DNA of 41,688 nt from Lentisphaeria bacterium. Its GTDB lineage: Bacteria > Verrucomicrobiota > Lentisphaeria > Victivallales > UBA1829. The translations under genes were made by a program, and so were the position numbers. Position 1 is the stretch's first letter. The number at the start of each line of letters is the position of its first letter. The notes under the pieces were generated by a model. It made no database searches. It saw only the letters and a program-made list of their open reading frames with translations, and was not told the origin of the DNA. Shown piece by piece: positions 3,692 to 25,478 of this stretch. The stretch is taken from the NCBI GenBank assembly GCA_017963105.1, contig JAGCTY010000102.1, positions 1 to 41,688 of the forward strand. The letters run 5' to 3'.

Positions 3692-5860
3692 TCAGAGCAG
3701 GTAATTCGTGCCGATCTTCAGCAGCAGGCCGAGCTGGTACACGACGAGCGTGGTCACGTAGGCCAGCACGAAGAGCCCTGCGGCCTCGAAGAACATCCAC
3801 TTCCACGAGTTCAGCTCCCTGCGGATGATCGCGAGCGTGGCCAGGCACGGAATGGAGAGCAGGCAGAAGAGCATCATGCAGAACCCCTGGAGCGGAGTGT
3901 AGGCACGGCGGAGCTGCTGACGGAGCGGTTCCTGCTGGTCCTCGGGCGCATCCTCGGCGACTTCGCCTTCGGCGTACAGGATGCCGAGCTGGGAGACGAA
4001 GACCTCCTTGGCCGCCAGTGCGCCGATTGCGGCGGTCGTGACGCGCCAGTCGAAGCCGATGGGGCGGAACGCGGGTTCGAGGAACTTGCCGACGCGCCCT
4101 GAAATGGTGTATTCGGCGATTTCGGCTCGTTTCTGGTTTTCGATGTGCTTGAAGGCGGCGGACTGTTCCTCCGCGCTGAGGGAGGTATCGGAGGCGACGG
4201 CCATGATTTGCGCGCCGTAGTCGGCGTCGAACGTCTTCTTCTCCGGGAAATTGTTCGCGATGAAGAGGAGCACGGAGACGCCGAGGATGATCGTGCCCGC
4301 TTTTTTCAGGTACATCACGCCGCGGTCCCACATGTGCAGCAGGATGCTTTTCGCGGTCGGGACGCGGTAGGGCGGGAGCTCCATCAGGTAGACCTCGCCG
4401 TCCCCTTTGAACAGCGTGGATTTGAGGAGGCGGGCGGCGAGCATCGCGAAAGCGACGCCGATGGCGTAGATCAGGAACATGATGAACGCCTGGTATTTGA
4501 CCGCGAAGAACGCCGGGACCAGCAGCACGTAGATCGGCAACCGTGCGCCGCAGCTCATCAGCGGCAGCACCAGGATGGTAGTCCGGCGGTCGCGTTCGGA
4601 CTCGATGCTGCGCGTGGCCATGATCGCGGGGACGTTGCAGCCGAACCCGAGCACGAGCGGCACGAAACTCTTTCCCTGCAGATCGAACTTGCGCATGATG
4701 CCGTCCATCACGAACGCCGCGCGCGCCATGTAGCCGGTGTCCTCCAGGAACGCGATGGCGAGGAAGAGGAACAGGATGTTCGGGAGGAAGACCACCACGC
4801 CACCCACGCCGTGGATCACGCCGTCGATCAGCAGGCTGCGCAGGACGGGCTGGACGTCCGGCGACCAGAAGCGTTCGATCATGCCCTGGATCCATCCGAA
4901 CAGCCATTCGATGCCGGCGGTCATCGGCGCGGCGCAGGTGAACGTGAACCAGAACATGAGGTACATGACGACGAAGAACAGCGGCAGCCCGATCCACTGG
5001 TTGGTGACTACGGCGTCGATCTTGTCGGAGATTTCGCGACGGCGTTCCTGCGTGAACGAGATGGCGTCGCGGCATGCGCCTGAGATCATGGCGTAGCGGC
5101 AGTCGGCCATAAAGGTTTCGGCGGTGATGGCGTGCCGGGCGTAGAGGTGCGTGATCTGGGCGTCGATGATGGCGTCGAGCCCCTGGAATTCCGGGAGCCG
5201 CATCACGCAGGTGTCCTTCTCCAGCAGCTTGATGGCGAAGAAGCGCGCGGGGATGTGGCGGACGCGGTCGGTCATGGCGGGCTCGATCCACTCCACGATC
5301 TCGTGGATGGCGTCGTCGACGTCCGCGCCGTAGGTGAGCTTCGGGACATCGTGGTCCTCCAGGTGAAGCAGGCTTTCCGCGAGGGCGTTTTTGAGCATGT
5401 CGATGCCGTCGCCGCGGGACCCGACCGTCTGGACGATGCTGCATCCGAAATACGACTGGAGCTTCTGGATGTTGAACTTGAGTCCCTTCTTTTTCGCCTC
5501 GTCGCTCATGTTGAAGACGATCAGCATCGGGATGTGGAGTTCGGCGAGCTGCGTGGAGAGGTACAGGCTGCGCTGCGGGATCGACGAGTCGATCACGTTC
5601 ATGATGAGGTCGATCCCGGGCTTCGTGAGCTCCTCGAACGCGACGCCCTCCTCGGGCGAGCTGGAGGACAGGCTGTACACGCCGGGGATGTCGATGAGCT
5701 CGATCTCATCCTCGCCGAGCATGAATTCCCCGGTCTTGCTTTCGACCGTTACGCCGGGATAGTTGCCGACATGCTGCCGCGCGCCGGTAAGGCAGTTGAA
5801 AATCGTGGTTTTGCCGCAGTTCGGATTTCCGGCCAGGACGATCCGGTATTTGCGGCTCAT
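3692..5860 (-). CDS. feoB: Ferrous iron transport protein B
   Basis: Inner-membrane Fe(II) transporter with a cytoplasmic GTPase domain, 722 aa, a normal length. The G domain shows G1 GNPNCGKT (residues 11-18), switch region GNYPGVT, G3 DIPG (57-60) and G4 NMSD (117-120). The C-terminal half carries the Gate-type membrane segments, including GFGCNVPAIMATRSI with the conserved Cys and the second Gate region near VVTTLVVYQ. Its ATG overlaps the feoA stop (ATGA), so translation is coupled. Gene order feoA-feoB is standard; no feoC is visible. Ferrous iron uptake fits an anaerobic lifestyle. Confidence 0.97.
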   Translation of the reverse strand: MSRKYRIVLAGNPNCGKTTIFNCLTGARQHVGNYPGVTVESKTGEFMLGEDEIELIDIPGVYSLSSSSPEEGVAFEELTKPGIDLIMNVIDSSIPQRSLYLSTQLAELHIPMLIVFNMSDEAKKKGLKFNIQKLQSYFGCSIVQTVGSRGDGIDMLKNALAESLLHLEDHDVPKLTYGADVDDAIHEIVEWIEPAMTDRVRHIPARFFAIKLLEKDTCVMRLPEFQGLDAIIDAQITHLYARHAITAETFMADCRYAMISGACRDAISFTQERRREISDKIDAVVTNQWIGLPLFFVVMYLMFWFTFTCAAPMTAGIEWLFGWIQGMIERFWSPDVQPVLRSLLIDGVIHGVGGVVVFLPNILFLFLAIAFLEDTGYMARAAFVMDGIMRKFDLQGKSFVPLVLGFGCNVPAIMATRSIESERDRRTTILVLPLMSCGARLPIYVLLVPAFFAVKYQAFIMFLIYAIGVAFAMLAARLLKSTLFKGDGEVYLMELPPYRVPTAKSILLHMWDRGVMYLKKAGTIILGVSVLLFIANNFPEKKTFDADYGAQIMAVASDTSLSAEEQSAAFKHIENQKRAEIAEYTISGRVGKFLEPAFRPIGFDWRVTTAAIGALAAKEVFVSQLGILYAEGEVAEDAPEDQQEPLRQQLRRAYTPLQGFCMMLFCLLSIPCLATLAIIRRELNSWKWMFFEAAGLFVLAYVTTLVVYQLGLLLKIGTNYLL

Positions 5861-17989: not shown

Positions 17990-18799
17990 ATGTTGAAGTC
18001 CCTCTCTTTCTTTCTTCTTGCCGCGGCCGTCCTGTGCATGTTCCCGGCTGGACTTTTCGCTCAGGCAGCGGACGACGCCAAGCCGTCCGCTGCGAAGTGC
18101 GCGCATTGCGGGAAGGAGAAATTCGTTTCGGTTCAGGTGAAGAACTGCGCGGCCAAACTGGTTCCGCTCTGCTATGAATGCGCTATTCTGCCGCGCTGCC
18201 AATACTGTGGTCTCCCGTCCGAAACAGTGTCTGGCGGCGGGGACCGTCTCTGCCGGGACTGCGCGAAGGACTGTATCAAGGATAAGACCGAGGCGGAAAA
18301 AGTCATGAAGGATGTCCGGCAGGTGCTCACCGCGAAATTCAAAATGACGTCCAAGCATAAGATCATTTACGAGCTCGGCACGCGAAAGGACCTCAACCTG
18401 GAGGCCGACGGCGAACACAATGAGCTCGGCTGGTTCGATCCGAAGACGATCCGGAACAAACCCCAGTACACGATCCGCATCCTGACCGGACTTCCGCGCG
18501 ACGTTTTCCGTTCCGTCGGGGCGCACGAACTTGCACATGACTGGATGGACGAGACGCTGCCGCATCTGATGGACAAGCCGGAGATACGCGAGGGGTTCGC
18601 CGAGTTCGTCGCCTGGTCGTTCTCGAAGGCCGAGGGGAACAAACGCATGATGGAGTACACCGAAGGGCGCACGGATGATGTGTATGGCGGCGGATTCCGC
18701 AAGGTCCGCGCAATGATGGGCGACGCGAAGACCGCCGCCGAATGGAAAACCATCCTGCTGAAGGAGTTTCCTCTGAAAGGGAAAAAGAACGGCAAATAA
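17990..18799 (+). CDS. Secreted DA1-like zinc metallopeptidase with LIM-like zinc fingers (short paralogue)
   Basis: 269 aa. Signal peptide at 1-25 (MLKSLSFFLLAAAVLCMFPA...FAQA), so it is exported. Four CxxC knuckles follow (CAHC 37-40, CYEC 61-64, CQYC 70-73, CRDC 88-91), a LIM-like arrangement. The C-terminal domain holds the metallopeptidase motif HELAH (179-183) and REGFAEF (200-206), where the Glu is the likely third zinc ligand. This layout, LIM-like fingers then HExxH, is that of the DA1 family known from plant growth-control peptidases. GGAG precedes the ATG. It has its own strong promoter and is followed by a longer paralogue. Substrate unknown. Confidence 0.8.
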   Translation: MLKSLSFFLLAAAVLCMFPAGLFAQAADDAKPSAAKCAHCGKEKFVSVQVKNCAAKLVPLCYECAILPRCQYCGLPSETVSGGGDRLCRDCAKDCIKDKTEAEKVMKDVRQVLTAKFKMTSKHKIIYELGTRKDLNLEADGEHNELGWFDPKTIRNKPQYTIRILTGLPRDVFRSVGAHELAHDWMDETLPHLMDKPEIREGFAEFVAWSFSKAEGNKRMMEYTEGRTDDVYGGGFRKVRAMMGDAKTAAEWKTILLKEFPLKGKKNGK

Positions 18800-18923: not shown

Positions 18924-19937
18924 ATGATGCACCGTCTTTTCACCCTGTTTCTGTTGTTTTTCCTTTCCGTTCTGCTCTGCGGCGGACTGTTCGCCGCGAA
19001 GCGGAATACACTGGTTTGCGACTGGTGCGGCAAGAAGATCGATTCCAACGCCTCGTTCCTGAAATCCGAGGACAAGAATTTCTGCAGCGAGAAATGCTTC
19101 AACCAGTATGCCGAGTCGCTTCTTCCGGTCTGCGACGTCTGCGGCAAACGGTTCAAGTCAGGGTATACCAGCGACGGAAGGAACTTCTGCTCGAAAACCT
19201 GCCTGGAAACCACGTTCCACGAATGCGTCCACTGCCATCGGCGCGAACCCAAGGGATATATCCTCGGCAACAACGTCTTCCTCTGCGAATACTGTCGGGA
19301 ACTGCCTGCGTGCGCCAGCTGCCAGATGCCGCTCGACAAGTTTGCAAAGGACCTCGGCGACGGACGCAAGCTGTGCCGCGAATGCGCCCGCGACGCCATC
19401 TTTACGCAGTCCGAGGCGGAAAAGATCATGACTGCACTCCGTCAGAAGCTCGCCGACAAGTTCAAAATGGGTACGAAGCATCCGATCAAATTCGACCTCT
19501 GCACCCGCGCCGAACTGAAAAAGGAATCCACCGGCGACGGCGAACATGAGCTCGGCCTCTTCATCTTCCACAGGAACACCCTTTCATTTTTCAATCATAC
19601 CATCCGCAGCAAGGATGAATTCCGCATCCTGATCCTGATCGGACAGCCGCCGGACTTCTTCCGCGGAGTCGGGGCGCATGAGCTCGCCCACGACTGGATG
19701 CAGGAGAATCTGCCGCACATCGACGATCCGCAAATCCGCGAAGGTTTCGCCGAGTTCGTTTCCTGGCTGTACGCCAAAACCGAAAAATTGGACCGCGTGC
19801 CGTGGCGCATGGAGCAGAATACCGACCCGGTCTACGGCGACGGCTTCCGCAAGGTGCGCGACATGATGGGCGACGCGAAGACGGCGGCCGAGTGGAAACG
19901 TATTCTGCTGGACTATTATCCCTCGCCCGCGAAGTGA
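18924..19937 (+). CDS. Secreted DA1-like zinc metallopeptidase with extended zinc-finger array (long paralogue)
   Basis: 337 aa. Hydrophobic signal peptide (1-25), then eight cysteine pairs: CDWC 32-35, CSEKC 54-58, CDVC 70-73, CSKTC 89-93, CVHC 101-104, CEYC 121-124, CASC 130-133, CREC 151-154, about four zinc-binding modules. The peptidase part has HELAHDW (252-258) and REGFAEF (272-278) and aligns along its length with the upstream paralogue, down to a shared GDAKTAAEWK near the end. It arose by tandem duplication with gain or loss of zinc fingers. The start is ATG ATG; either is possible. A membrane protein gene follows after 23 bp, probably in the same transcript. Confidence 0.8.
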   Translation: MMHRLFTLFLLFFLSVLLCGGLFAAKRNTLVCDWCGKKIDSNASFLKSEDKNFCSEKCFNQYAESLLPVCDVCGKRFKSGYTSDGRNFCSKTCLETTFHECVHCHRREPKGYILGNNVFLCEYCRELPACASCQMPLDKFAKDLGDGRKLCRECARDAIFTQSEAEKIMTALRQKLADKFKMGTKHPIKFDLCTRAELKKESTGDGEHELGLFIFHRNTLSFFNHTIRSKDEFRILILIGQPPDFFRGVGAHELAHDWMQENLPHIDDPQIREGFAEFVSWLYAKTEKLDRVPWRMEQNTDPVYGDGFRKVRDMMGDAKTAAEWKRILLDYYPSPAK

Positions 19938-19960: not shown

Positions 19961-20860
19961 ATGTCGAAGATGATCCCTGTTTTCGTGACGCTGGCCGTCC
20001 CCATCCTCTTTCTCGTTCTTATCTTTTATCTCCTGGTGCGCGCTATCCGGACTCCGGGAACGCGCTGGTGGGGCATCGTGATCCTGCTCGCCATCCTCAC
20101 CTGCTACTGCACGACCATGGTCGGTATCGCCGGAATGATCGTCGGCAGCAACGCTACCGGATCCGCCGCGCTGGAACGGCATTATTGCGAACAGTTCTGC
20201 GAGGCGCTGAAGCAAACCGAAACGCTCCCCGAAGCGATCGCGTGCATGGATGCCGCCGCCGCGACCGATGAGTACCAAATCCATGAACCGGACAAAAACC
20301 TCCGGTTCCGCTACGTCTGGCTGCTGGGCGGCTGTTTCCTCTTCGCCGGGGCGAACCTGATGATGTTCGGACCCGGACGCCGCGAAAAACGCCACACCGG
20401 CGACTGCATCATGATGATCCTGGCGGCGCTGGTCGTTTTTTTGACCGGAATCTGGCAGATCGCCTGGGGGAACGGCTATGCGTTTCAGGCGTCGGCGTTC
20501 CACAGGTTCCTGACCGGATGGCATGAAACGATCCGGCTGGACGAGATTCGCGCTTCGAACGAGGAAATCGCCGCCTGGCTTTCCGGCGACGGCAGGGTGA
20601 AAGGAATCGACGAGCTTTTCATGAGAATCCGCCTGCTTTCCGTTGAACCGGAGCATCTCACACGTGAAAAAACGGAAAAACAGGATGATGCCGATGCTTC
20701 GGCCCCGGCGGACGCCGGAACGGGGCCGGGCGTCGCCATCATCGGCGGGGCGGACGGTCCGACAGCCGTCTTTATCAGTTCCGAGCTCATGAAGCAGCAG
20801 GCCGGCGGCACGGGTAACGAACCGGCCGGAAATGCGCCGGAATCCGGTACTTCTGAATAA
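19961..20860 (+). CDS. Four-helix membrane protein with C-terminal GGADGPT motif, unknown function
   Basis: 299 aa, not a recognised family overall. Predicted membrane helices at about 8-26, 37-61, 119-137 and 149-170, then a soluble segment and an acidic Ala/Asp-rich linker. Residues 257-276 (DNA 20729-20788) contain GVAIIGGADGPTAVFIS, which matches the sodium-binding loop of the beta subunit of sodium-pumping decarboxylases (OadB/GcdB/MmdB), although nothing else of that large protein is present. It starts 23 bp after the second DA1-like gene and ends before a bidirectional terminator. The motif may be a functional graft or a short linear motif with another role. Confidence 0.7.
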   Translation: MSKMIPVFVTLAVPILFLVLIFYLLVRAIRTPGTRWWGIVILLAILTCYCTTMVGIAGMIVGSNATGSAALERHYCEQFCEALKQTETLPEAIACMDAAAATDEYQIHEPDKNLRFRYVWLLGGCFLFAGANLMMFGPGRREKRHTGDCIMMILAALVVFLTGIWQIAWGNGYAFQASAFHRFLTGWHETIRLDEIRASNEEIAAWLSGDGRVKGIDELFMRIRLLSVEPEHLTREKTEKQDDADASAPADAGTGPGVAIIGGADGPTAVFISSELMKQQAGGTGNEPAGNAPESGTSE

Positions 20861-20945: not shown

Positions 20946-22178
20946 TTATTTCGCCACGCCCGGATCGTTGACGCGGCCCATGAAGAGGATGAGGCCGGTC
21001 TGGTTGTCGCGGATGAGCACAAGGAACGGACGGTCGGCGCGGAATTCGTTGACGGGATCGGGCATGCCGATGGAGGTGATCCTGGCCATGCCGATGGCGG
21101 TCGCCGCCGCCGCCTTCGTGGAGACTTCGTCCATCTTCAGCGCGGTCTTGTGCACCACGTTCTCAATCTTGAGCGCCTCTTCCGTATCGATGCCGGAGAA
21201 ATCGGCGAAATTGGAGAACGGGTTCTTCATGCCGAGCCCCTGGAGCGTCTTGTTGAGGTTGATCTTGCAGGTCAGGTCGGTCTTCGGCAGCCAAACGCGC
21301 GTTTCGCCGCGCTGACGGCGTCCGAGCCAGGAATCGAGCTTGTCGCCGATGGAGGCGGTGATCGTCTTCAGCGCGGCTTCGCCGTGGTCGACGCCCCCGT
21401 CGATCGGCATGAGCGCGACGAGCTCGAACCGGCGGTTTTCGTAGGGCAGGACGATCGCGTGGACGTTGTCCTGACGGCTGGCGAAATAGGCGATGCCGTT
21501 GCTCTTCTGGTACATCATCTGGACTTCCTTTTCACCGCCGCCGAACTGCGTGAACGCCATCGGCTTGGTGTCGTCCTTCGGGAAAGGGTTCGCCCATTTC
21601 GCCTCGAAATACAGCGTGTTCAGCAGGACCATGGAGGTGTCCTTGCTGAAGAAATCGGGCGTGAGCAGGTCCTTGATCATGTTTTTCGTACGGCCTTCGA
21701 CGTAGGCGTTGATCTTCGCGGCGACCTTCGCGGACTGCCCGAAATCTTCCTTGTAGAACGCGCCGCCGTAATACTTCTTGATCATTTCGGTAAATTCGGG
21801 CAGAACGTTCTGGTCCGTGTCGGTCCAGACGGAGTTCGACACCAGGATCTCGGTCTTTTCCGCCTCGGCATACTGCTTCGTGACCGCGTCGAAGAACGCG
21901 CCGCATTCCGCGGGATCGGCGGGCAGGCCGAGCACCTTGCGGATTTCGTCGGCGGTCGTACCCTTCGCGCCGCAGTAGACCATGCCGAACGCGCCGTCGA
22001 TGCTGAACGGCGAAATGAACCGGTTGCCCTTCGCATCCTCTTTGCAGACGGTATCGAAGAGTTTGAATCCCTGGCGGTTCAGTTCGGCGGCAACCTTCTG
22101 GTCCGCAGCTTCATCGGCGAACGCGGGAAGCGCGATGCTCATGGCGCACAGGGCGGCGTAAAACAGTGTTTTCTTCAT
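20946..22178 (-). CDS. Secreted serpin (serine protease inhibitor)
   Basis: 410 aa, full serpin length after a signal peptide (MKKTLFYAALCAMSIALPAFA). Core motifs are present: NRFISPFSIDGAFGMVYCGAKGTT, LVSNSVWTD, LLNTLYFEAKWANPF, VLPYENRRFELVALMP, and the C-terminal ADRPFLVLIRDNQTGLILFMGRVNDP. The reactive loop hinge reads STKAAAATAIGMARIT; the small residues expected for an inhibitory serpin are kept, though P15 is Ser instead of Gly. P1 probably lies within GMARITSIGM and cannot be fixed. AAGGAG precedes the ATG; the longer frame to 22370 is not supported. It may protect against host or community proteases. Confidence 0.93.
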   Translation of the reverse strand: MKKTLFYAALCAMSIALPAFADEAADQKVAAELNRQGFKLFDTVCKEDAKGNRFISPFSIDGAFGMVYCGAKGTTADEIRKVLGLPADPAECGAFFDAVTKQYAEAEKTEILVSNSVWTDTDQNVLPEFTEMIKKYYGGAFYKEDFGQSAKVAAKINAYVEGRTKNMIKDLLTPDFFSKDTSMVLLNTLYFEAKWANPFPKDDTKPMAFTQFGGGEKEVQMMYQKSNGIAYFASRQDNVHAIVLPYENRRFELVALMPIDGGVDHGEAALKTITASIGDKLDSWLGRRQRGETRVWLPKTDLTCKINLNKTLQGLGMKNPFSNFADFSGIDTEEALKIENVVHKTALKMDEVSTKAAAATAIGMARITSIGMPDPVNEFRADRPFLVLIRDNQTGLILFMGRVNDPGVAK

Positions 22179-22245
22179 GATTTTTGCTCCTTGTATGGTG
22201 TGTTTCAAAAACGTGTTCTGATAATTAGTCGGGAAAACGCCGGAA

Positions 22246-22274
22246 ATCTTAGCGGAGAAAAGTATTTTTTTCAA
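22246..22274 (-). promoter_or_regulatory. Serpin promoter
   Basis: Minus-strand TTGAAA (22269-22274), 17 bp, TAAGAT (22246-22251). Confidence 0.5.
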
Positions 22275-22509
22275 AAAAACACGAACGGGCGGAATATGGG
22301 ACACCCCTCCGAGCCCGGTCAGGATGCCCGAGGAATGCCGGAAACGGCCCATGGAACGCCGGAGTCTCAAAGACCATATTCATATCGGAAAAGCCCGGAA
22401 CCGCGTCGGAATCGCCTTGAAACGGCCCTTGCGCGTATCCTGACGGGACAAGGAGGGCCGCATATCTGTTTCCGAACGTTTCCGCACCTGCCGAATCCTT
22501 CCGAACGAT

Positions 22510-22562: not shown

Positions 22563-25478
22563 TCAGATCGCGGGAACGCCGCGTCCGCTCTGGTCTTCGC
22601 GGAACGGAGATCCGTCGGGTTTGATCAGGCGGCTGGTCAGGAAGATCAGGAGGTTGGTCTTCTTGGCGCCTTTGCCTTTGCCTTGGAAGAAGCGGCCGAT
22701 CAGCGGGAGGTCGCCGAGGATCGGGTACTGGTCTTCGATCATGGACAGCTCGTCGCGGATCACGCCGCCGAGGACGACGGTTTCGCCGTCGTAGCTCATG
22801 ACGTTCGTGTTCAGGTAACGCGCTTCGATGATCGGCATCTTCAGGGTGTTGGGATACAGCTCGTTGTTTTCTCCCAGCGGGATGGAGTAGGAGTAGTCGG
22901 TCCAGCCGATGAATTCCTGGATGACCGGGGTCATTTCGAGGAAGATCGTGTAGTTGTCCTCTTCCACGCGCGGACGGACCTGGAGCGCGATACCTTCTTC
23001 GGTGGCGCCGCCGAACTGCGGGATGGACGGCGTGAAGACCGGCACGTTGGAGCCGTTGGTGGAGATGGTTTCGAGTTCGGCCTCTTCCCAGTCGGTCGGA
23101 TAGTACTTTTCGGTGACCATGCGGATGACGGCGTTCTGGTTGTTCATGGTCGTCAGGCGCGGCGCGGAAAGGATTTCCGTGGAGTCGGCGTTGTCCAGGG
23201 CGTGGATGCCGCCGGTGAACTGGTAGCCGTCCGCGTTGTAGGTCGACCAGTTGAAGACCGTGTCGTTCTGCGTACCGGTCGTGGCGCCGAAGATGCCGGG
23301 ACTGGTCTGGGAGTTGCGGTTGAAGTGGCTGTTCGGGCCCCAGGTGATGTGGTGTCCGTAGTTCTTCGCCGCTTCGTTCTGGAGGACGCCTTTGTAGTAG
23401 GCCTCGCCGTCTTCCAGGTTCTCGGGAACGAAGTATACATCGCCTTTCGCGACGTTCAGGGACTGCATGTTCCGCGTATCCAGGGACGTGGGGTCGATCG
23501 CCGGGTCAACCCAGGCGGGCTCTTCCCCGGATCCCAGGGATTGGCGACGGGTTTCCGAGGCGTTCTGATAATACATGATGAAGGAGTCGTTGGCGGTAAC
23601 GCCGGTGTTTTCGTCATTGCCGTTGACCGTCGCATACGTCGCGCCGAGCGGCTGGATGCCGCTGGCCGTGACTTCGTCCCACGTCGGGGCGACGCGGGAG
23701 AACGTGTAGTCGAAGGAGAGTTCCTGCAGGTCGTTCATTTCGATTTCGACGAACTTCACCTGGATCAGCACCTGCGGGTCGGAGACGTCCATCTGGTCGA
23801 TGAGGTCTTCCACGCGGTCGAGCGCCTCGGAGGTGTTGTAGACCGTCAGGCGGCTGCTCATCTCGTCGTAGCGGACGGATGCGCCGGTCGGGAACGGGAT
23901 GCCGCGGTCGATCAGGTACTGCTTGACGTTTTCATTGGTCAGGTCGCCGCCGATGATGCCGCTGGCGAGGATTTCCTTGTCGATCGGGAACGTCTTGCGG
24001 ACGAACTCGTCGAGCGGGACGTCCTTGGCCGCGATCACGACCGCGTAGTTTTCGACGCGGAAGTGGAGGTTGGCCGCCTTGCAGATGTAGCGGATGGCGT
24101 CGATCAGGGAGACATTTTCGACCACGAGGTTGACCGTGGTGTTCTCGGCAGTCTGCACGGGCTCTTCGCCGCCGGGGCCGCCGGGGATGTTGTCGTCGTA
24201 GGAGTAGAAATCTCCTTCGTAGGACTCTTCTTCCTCTTCGGGTTCCTCTTCCTCTTCGAACCCGTCATCATCGCCGAATTCGTCTTCTTCGCTGACGGGC
24301 CTGGAGGCGGAATTGGTGTCGTCCGTGTTGAACCGGAGCACGAAGTTGACGCCGATGCGGTCGGGATCCTTGTCCTTGCTGGTGTGCTTAAGGAACTGGA
24401 CGACCTGCGTGATGGAGACTTCCTCGAAGTCGATGCGGTCGATGATGATGTCGTTGAGTTTCTTCTGGGTGGTGCCGACGTTGTCTTCCTTCACCTTGAC
24501 GTCTTCGATGACGACGTCGTCGGAGGTTTCGGACCCGGTCGGGATCGGGGCGATCATTTCCCAGAGGGCTTCCGCTTCACGTTCCAGGTAGACAGCGCCC
24601 TGACGGCGCTTGCCGGTCTCGGATTCGTGGATGTAGATGCGGCGGAGATAGTCGATGGCCGTGATGTTGTAAGGGTCAAGGATGATGACCTGGTTGAACT
24701 TCTCCTGCGCGCGGTTCCATTGCTTGGTGTTGTAGAGCGTCTGGCCCTGGCGGATCAGGACGGAGATGCGCTTCACGCGGTTCTTCGCCTCGGGGATGAG
24801 TTCCTCGTCGGAGGTATCCTTCTTGTACTGGGCGGAGGACTTCATGATGGTGTATTCATCGATGGTCTTGCGCATGATGGGTTCGGAGAGCGGATACACC
24901 TTGATGGCTTCCTCGCACTTTTCGATAGCTTCGTCGTAGAGGCCGATCTGAGCCGTCTCTTCCGCCTCGTTGAAGATCTTCCGCGCCCAGAAGTAGTAGC
25001 AGTTGGAGATCATCTTCTGGACTTCGGCGATCTTCGCCTTGTTGGCGTCCGGGACTTCGCCGTTGACGACGTCCTGCTCAAGAAGCTTCAGGACATCGAC
25101 GTAGGCGTCGACCGCGACGTCGTATTCTTCGTGCTCGAATGCGGAGGACGCCTTCTTCATGAGTTCGTCGGCGTTTTTCCTCATCGCATCGCGGGCGATC
25201 AGTTCTTCGATGGATGCGGCGGTCTGATCCCGAAGCGCTTCCTTTTCTGCGTCGGTGAGTTCGGCCTCGGGCTGTTCTTCGGTCGTCTCGGCGACGGGAA
25301 TCTCTTCTTCCTCGACCGTCTCAACGACGGGAATTTCTTCTTCCTCGAGGATCACGTCCTCGACGTCCTGCGCGAGGACGGGGATCGAGAACGCGAGCGC
25401 CAGGAGGATGGCGGAATAGCGGGGGAATGCGTGCATGGGAGCCTCCATGAAATATTTCATATCTTTAATCTTCTTCAT
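22563..25478 (-). CDS. Secretin with TPR N-terminus, second copy (Amuc_1098-like)
   Basis: 971 aa outer-membrane secretin. Signal peptide after a short basic start (AILLALAFSIPVLAQD), then an acidic Glu-rich stretch, TPR-like helices (about 90-310), secretin N-domains (TVNLVVENVSLIDAIRYICK; SSRLTVYNTSEALDRVEDLIDQM), and the pore domain (DSTEILSAPRLTTMNNQNAVIRMVTEKYYP; YDGETVVLGGVI; PILGDLPLIGRFFQGKGKG). A second acidic insert (about 395-440) lies between the N-domains. AAGGAG precedes the start. It begins 12 bp after the stop of the first secretin gene, to which it is paralogous. Last gene of the operon. Confidence 0.9.
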   Translation of the reverse strand: MKKIKDMKYFMEAPMHAFPRYSAILLALAFSIPVLAQDVEDVILEEEEIPVVETVEEEEIPVAETTEEQPEAELTDAEKEALRDQTAASIEELIARDAMRKNADELMKKASSAFEHEEYDVAVDAYVDVLKLLEQDVVNGEVPDANKAKIAEVQKMISNCYYFWARKIFNEAEETAQIGLYDEAIEKCEEAIKVYPLSEPIMRKTIDEYTIMKSSAQYKKDTSDEELIPEAKNRVKRISVLIRQGQTLYNTKQWNRAQEKFNQVIILDPYNITAIDYLRRIYIHESETGKRRQGAVYLEREAEALWEMIAPIPTGSETSDDVVIEDVKVKEDNVGTTQKKLNDIIIDRIDFEEVSITQVVQFLKHTSKDKDPDRIGVNFVLRFNTDDTNSASRPVSEEDEFGDDDGFEEEEEPEEEEESYEGDFYSYDDNIPGGPGGEEPVQTAENTTVNLVVENVSLIDAIRYICKAANLHFRVENYAVVIAAKDVPLDEFVRKTFPIDKEILASGIIGGDLTNENVKQYLIDRGIPFPTGASVRYDEMSSRLTVYNTSEALDRVEDLIDQMDVSDPQVLIQVKFVEIEMNDLQELSFDYTFSRVAPTWDEVTASGIQPLGATYATVNGNDENTGVTANDSFIMYYQNASETRRQSLGSGEEPAWVDPAIDPTSLDTRNMQSLNVAKGDVYFVPENLEDGEAYYKGVLQNEAAKNYGHHITWGPNSHFNRNSQTSPGIFGATTGTQNDTVFNWSTYNADGYQFTGGIHALDNADSTEILSAPRLTTMNNQNAVIRMVTEKYYPTDWEEAELETISTNGSNVPVFTPSIPQFGGATEEGIALQVRPRVEEDNYTIFLEMTPVIQEFIGWTDYSYSIPLGENNELYPNTLKMPIIEARYLNTNVMSYDGETVVLGGVIRDELSMIEDQYPILGDLPLIGRFFQGKGKGAKKTNLLIFLTSRLIKPDGSPFREDQSGRGVPAI

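Follow-up and report, generated by a model that had tools for sequence, protein, structure and literature searches.

A hairpin segment of decarboxylase beta subunits probably recurs as a portable peptide module in unrelated bacterial proteins

Introduction

The decarboxylase beta subunits OadB, GcdB and MmdB (PF03977, TIGR01109) are the described proteins that come closest to the short module reported here. In the OadB structure the corresponding stretch forms a helical hairpin, H1, at whose tip Asp203 meets Ser382 of a partner hairpin, H2 (PMC7274780). The mutations D203A and S382A abolish sodium binding, to which Asn412 also contributes (PMC7274780). Pfam and NCBIfam recognise the stretch solely as a part of OadB, and our searches of open-access literature returned no description of a free-standing GGADGPT or PF03977 module.

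Short sequences that recur in unrelated proteins are also known from other systems. Rickettsia palindromic elements are short coding inserts in unrelated proteins. C-terminal sorting tags such as LPXTG, PEP-CTERM and GlyGly-CTERM are short conserved stretches common to unrelated exported proteins.

Here we describe a free-standing copy of the OadB stretch in a contig of a Lentisphaeria bacterium (the window, 41,688 nucleotides, JAGCTY010000102.1) and its relatives in other genomes. The module resembles the beta subunits in the 20–22 residues of H1, including Asp203, and in flanking positions. The proteins that host it differ from the beta subunits in three ways: they are without the other OadB helices, H2, Ser382 and Asn412; they score far below the family cut-offs; and no decarboxylase genes lie beside them.

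Results

The host protein in the window is 299 aa long (19961–20860, forward strand, like all of its features given here); four membrane segments are predicted in it, and a long tail forms its C-terminus. The segments lie approximately at 19970–20050 (AlphaFold helix 4–30 plus hydrophobicity) and 20069–20146 (helix 32–64), both with deduced boundaries, and at 20309–20371 (helix 114–136) and 20405–20470 (helix 146–190). The module, GVAIIGGADGPTAVFISSEL, occupies residues 257–276 (20729–20788), 23 residues from the C-terminal end. It was placed by the position of the motif and by Pfam and module-profile matches, and corresponds to H1. Its core, GGADGPT (20744–20764), stands out by residue conservation across 51 non-OadB modules. 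The acidic linker that precedes the module (20666–20728) evolves fast, with mostly nonsynonymous codon changes between orthologs. From a shallow alignment, AlphaFold predicts a moderately well folded body and disorder for residues 239–299. The initial annotation had described GGADGPT near the C-terminus of a 299-residue four-helix protein, behind a soluble linker. Reading frame, coordinates and the four hydrophobic segments agree with this description, and the tail that precedes and holds the module is indeed soluble and predicted to be disordered. Two basic loops, RAIRTPGTR and GPGRREKRH, suggest by the positive-inside rule that the motif-bearing tail is on the outer side of the cell membrane.

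It had also been noted that the rest of OadB is missing, and three comparisons bear this out. Pfam matches OAD_beta to residues 257–281 alone (profile positions 114–138 of 349, E = 1e-4), with a score of 22 bits for PF03977 against a cut-off of 31.6 and 25 of the 349 positions covered. TIGR01109 reaches 17.6 bits against a cut-off of 190.6, and both TIGR01109 and the solved OadB structure 6iva align solely over the module stretch. The window protein contains what characterises H1, GGADGPT with the residue equivalent to Asp203. The second inverted repeat of OadB, with H2 (Ser382) and Asn412, is absent from it according to Pfam and the comparison with 6iva. No Pfam or NCBIfam family scores above its cut-off on the window protein, and a PDB fold search gave no match at E ≤ 0.001. 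The motif is not a chance occurrence, since the reversed-pattern control for a degenerate DNA pattern of the motif had 0 matches in 61 genomes and the window copy matches a 23-position module profile with E = 8e-11 in its own genome (the copy is one of the profile's 51 rows). A full-length OadB, for which a check had been proposed, is encoded elsewhere in the genome (G000:C70:2934–3998, E = 2e-161).

The secreted peptidases initially reported next to the window gene are relatives of DA1-like peptidases: 17990–18799 and 18924–19937 (forward strand) encode two secreted proteins, related and in tandem, whose Cys-rich N-termini resemble zinc ribbons and which have a DA1-like peptidase region. On the reverse strand, a bacterial serpin (20946–22370; Pfam Serpin, E = 6e-95) is convergent with the window gene, and a 971-aa protein (22563–25478) looks like TPR plus secretin-type when its sequence is read.

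Orthologs of the window protein are present in 12 of the 13 genomes of the genus. Five of them contain the motif (G000, the window genome, and G002, G005, G008 and G009); the other seven finish in short tails of unrelated sequence. The initial annotation had raised the absence of the motif from homologues as an objection, which is real for these seven orthologs but does not extend to the genus, where other hosts carry the module. In G010, G011 and G012 the window ortholog is without the motif, and the module is found instead near the end of a zinc-ribbon/coiled-coil protein with a single membrane segment, in copies that match beyond the core too. This protein occurs in 12 genomes of the genus, and the module is in the copies of G010, G011 and G012 only. 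The coiled-coil protein (L265–L276) is conserved genus-wide, with a variable tail that mostly ends in SGGGL. G007, the genome in which no window ortholog turned up, has the module behind the N-terminal membrane segment of an alpha-2-macroglobulin-like protein of 1,650 residues.

In the body tree G000, G010 and G001 group together as a trio with good support. The module is in the window protein in G000, in the coiled-coil protein in G010 and in neither protein in G001. Since the trio differs in all three states, gains or losses of the module take place over short times. In the best explanation the module has interchangeable carriers, and the window protein is one of them. Mutual exclusivity of the carriers was considered as well but is given no weight: simple counting yields only p ≈ 0.16 for 5 and 3 carriers among 12 genomes with zero overlap, and two modules can occur in one Lachnospiraceae genome. 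In the order of the window genome no module was found outside the genus, save for a variant protein (L261 in G036, GGADGPASIY).

In one scan of named genomes, Lachnospiraceae and Geosporobacter subterraneus DSM 17957 yielded module-only proteins. Later surveys covered 200 Lachnospiraceae, 89 Oscillospirales and 99 Bacteroidales genomes. At least 33 of the Lachnospiraceae genomes encode module-only proteins (PF03977 search; 48 genomes were re-searched). As an internal control, about 41 partial OAD_beta matches in the 48 re-searched genomes fall on the module stretch and about 8 elsewhere. Module-only proteins were found in about 14 Oscillospirales genomes, and all matches in Bacteroidales are in OadB-like frames of 353–559 aa, judged by open-frame length. 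The initially proposed search for GGADGPT proteins outside the decarboxylase family was hence successful in the genus, in Lachnospiraceae and in Oscillospirales. Genomes mostly have one to three module carriers. The contigs that hold several of the carriers are multi-megabase in size (G369, G425 and G472), so an assembly artefact does not account for the modules. In phage and plasmid collections the inspected places were OadB genes, either on fecal contigs without annotation or on a citrate-lyase plasmid, and one HAAS-type module is on an unannotated Subdoligranulum plasmid. A scan of IMG/VR returned a few modules, in putative prophage contigs, and no phage-specific module host.

Host domains identified by Pfam are rhodanese, peptidase M56 (BlaR1), HTH_3, HAAS, CDP-OH_P_transf, cyclophilin-like, DUF4430 and GDSL, as well as ABC2 by a weak match; most of the domains adjoin a short OAD_beta match. 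The HTH_3 regulators have two transmembrane (TM) segments. Further hosts are TM-module-TM proteins of 77–98 residues, lipoproteins with the module directly after the lipobox, and secreted proteins with the module in the C-terminal tail. At one locus two related small TM-module-TM proteins lie a few genes apart (L206:2209–2439 and 4846–5172), one with a drifted module (GGAEGPASIII). A rhodanese and a cyclophilin-like protein (L202, L212) have an entire N-terminus of TM segment and module in common. Of two CDP-alcohol phosphatidyltransferases (L234, L251), one carries the module in its first loop and the other in its last, which is good evidence for independent gains. The immediate neighbours at 11 loci inspected, including those of small TM-module-TM proteins, have nothing in common, and no partner protein or conserved neighbourhood was found.

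Modules are found anywhere from residue 6 to the C-terminal tail, and 49 of 73 lie at most 25 residues from a hydrophobic segment or lipobox. In the topologies that we infer for the hosts, the module would be extracytoplasmic in HTH, HAAS, M56 and lipoprotein hosts; the first three have cytoplasmic parts and TM segments, which puts the module outside. A soluble class, with the module at the very N-terminus and without a membrane segment, breaks this outside-the-membrane rule (L204, L216, L225, L232, L236, L246 and L282). Identity in this class is 0.74 for the module and 0.36 for the rest of the protein, values that are biased by how the loci were found. Members of this family, which also includes L284, are about 220 residues long and have no Pfam domain above cut-off; some copies are in putative prophage contigs.

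Within the 51 non-OadB modules G, G and P are invariant and I, D, G and T reach at least 90%. The consensus IGGADGPT[SA][IV]F is very tight. The aspartate is kept in nearly all modules and is occasionally Asn, Cys or Glu. Between the window orthologs L037 and L042 the module shows 10 synonymous codon changes and one nonsynonymous change, the adjoining linker 6 and 11, respectively. Third-position identity among modules is about 0.33. Hence, codons are saturated while residues are kept, which indicates selection on the peptide. Judged by these codon changes, the module is kept by selection wherever it is present. One of the initial proposals, a recurring short module with its own function, agrees with the many unrelated hosts and with selection that keeps the module at the protein level.

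The modules retain H1 residues over so long a match that common descent with H1 of OadB is the one sensible explanation for it. Lachnospiraceae often have two OadB paralogs, with GAADGPT and GGADGPT at the hairpin tip (L292, L294, L297, L299 and others versus L290, L291 and L293). The modules take after the paralog with GGADGPT, in no case the one with GAADGPT. Modules are also slightly closer to OadB of their own lineage than to that of other family genomes (p ≈ 0.004), a statistic that is weakened by relatedness among the genomes. Nucleotide identity between a module and its own oadB is never above 0.76. These observations fit old captures from native oadB genes, or co-evolution with something that OadB touches.

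The initial annotation had also considered a re-entrant hairpin. H1 of OadB is a helical hairpin, whereas for a 77-residue TM-module-TM protein (L209) AlphaFold predicts a beta-hairpin from a shallow alignment of 12 sequences (strands 30–34 and 42–46, pLDDT about 70–84). For the window protein the prediction is disorder, again from a shallow alignment.

Discussion

We are confident that the segment is a portable membrane-proximal hairpin or peptide module of OadB descent. How it works is a matter of much more doubtful proposals, of which use in cis for docking is a possible one. The module would sit on the outer face of the membrane and fold as a compact hairpin, in which two hydrophobic arms flank the GGADGP turn. 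It would then dock its host in cis, either onto a common membrane component or onto other copies of the module. It would neither pump nor translocate sodium, a role that appears excluded, as the protein has no partner hairpin, lacks half of the ion site and has none of the transport helices. The reading as a whole, a portable OadB-descended module of about 20 residues that is found in Clostridia and the window genus and docks in cis, is offered tentatively. Speaking against docking are the soluble class with the N-terminal module, the neighbourhood comparison, which gave neither a partner nor a conserved gene context, the seven of 12 orthologs that do without the module and the predicted disorder of the tail in the window protein. 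No earlier account of such a module came up in open-access literature, and any function of it is putative.

The rival explanations are, in order, a processing or modification site, a tolerated insert, an ion-responsive element and a mimic directed at OadB. The module could be a recognition site for a membrane-near enzyme that processes, sorts or modifies proteins (a protease, a sortase-like enzyme or one that makes a covalent modification). The very tight consensus, the membrane-proximal position, the small number of carriers per genome and the N-terminus common to the rhodanese and the cyclophilin-like protein are all in its favor. We nevertheless consider it unlikely, since the position of the module varies from the N-terminus over the loops of polytopic enzymes to the C-terminus, and cutting in the loops of CDP-alcohol phosphatidyltransferases would break the enzyme. 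C-terminal sorting tags are likewise short conserved stretches across unrelated exported proteins, but the module is not tied to one end, occurs within polytopic-enzyme loops and is mostly present one to three times per genome. No sorting-tag model matches it, and no enzyme is co-located.

One could also argue that the module is a coding insert in the manner of Rickettsia palindromic elements, neutral or selfish, which spreads between genes and is merely tolerated. It shares with these elements that a short in-frame segment in unrelated genes is variable between orthologs; three unrelated hosts carry it in a single genus, and the copies there have the residues SGQSA in common beyond the core. 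This explanation is rather unlikely, for the following reasons. First, the module is conserved as protein, not as DNA: DNA-level similarity is confined to close relatives, and purifying selection is evident. Second, no palindrome or tandem repeat spans the module in the window, which together with the low third-position identity leaves a recent DNA element unsupported. Third, there is no near-identical recent copy, the best being the match to the module's own oadB. Fourth, the module is found in several bacterial families and is biased towards the membrane.

Less likely still is an ion-responsive element, in which the hairpin with its aspartate binds sodium and so tunes regulators and enzymes. 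The aspartate that nearly all modules keep is the sodium-binding Asp203 of OadB (PMC7274780), and several hosts are membrane regulators. However, the ligands Ser382 and Asn412 are missing, variants with Asn, Cys or Glu exist, and the hosts include lipoproteins and enzymes without a sensing role. Given the missing ligands and the variants of the aspartate, a sodium site in the grafted ion-binding hairpin that the initial annotation envisaged is not supported either.

A role as H1 mimic, in which the module would attach to OadB or its partners as a decoy, in assembly or in regulation, is improbable. The modules are nearest to OadB of their own lineage (a small effect, with relatives that are not independent) and never resemble the GAADGPT paralog, but old capture of the native oadB could equally give such a resemblance. 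H1 is moreover buried within OadB, and in G329, G346 and G352 (possibly draft genomes) modules are present and OadB was not found. Finally, a match of only about 25 residues might suggest that the similarity, confined to one strain, is due to chance or to a decayed oadB fusion, the latter of which the initial annotation had allowed for. This is refuted by selection and by conservation of the motif, which five species of the genus and dozens of further proteins share.

For several module proteins OAD_beta is the sole library match, hence automatic annotation may call them decarboxylase subunits. It is conceivable, albeit doubtful, that the hairpin of a transporter's ion site became a free-standing module in Clostridia and in one or more genera of a second phylum, repeatedly gained and lost by many unrelated extracytoplasmic proteins, that binds a common membrane partner and serves as a docking code in gut bacteria. 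If true, this would clearly exemplify how the hairpin of a transporter can become a portable peptide. Should the module serve as a docking or processing code, rhodaneses, antibiotic-sensor peptidases, transcription regulators and lipid enzymes in abundant gut bacteria would be connected through one common partner.
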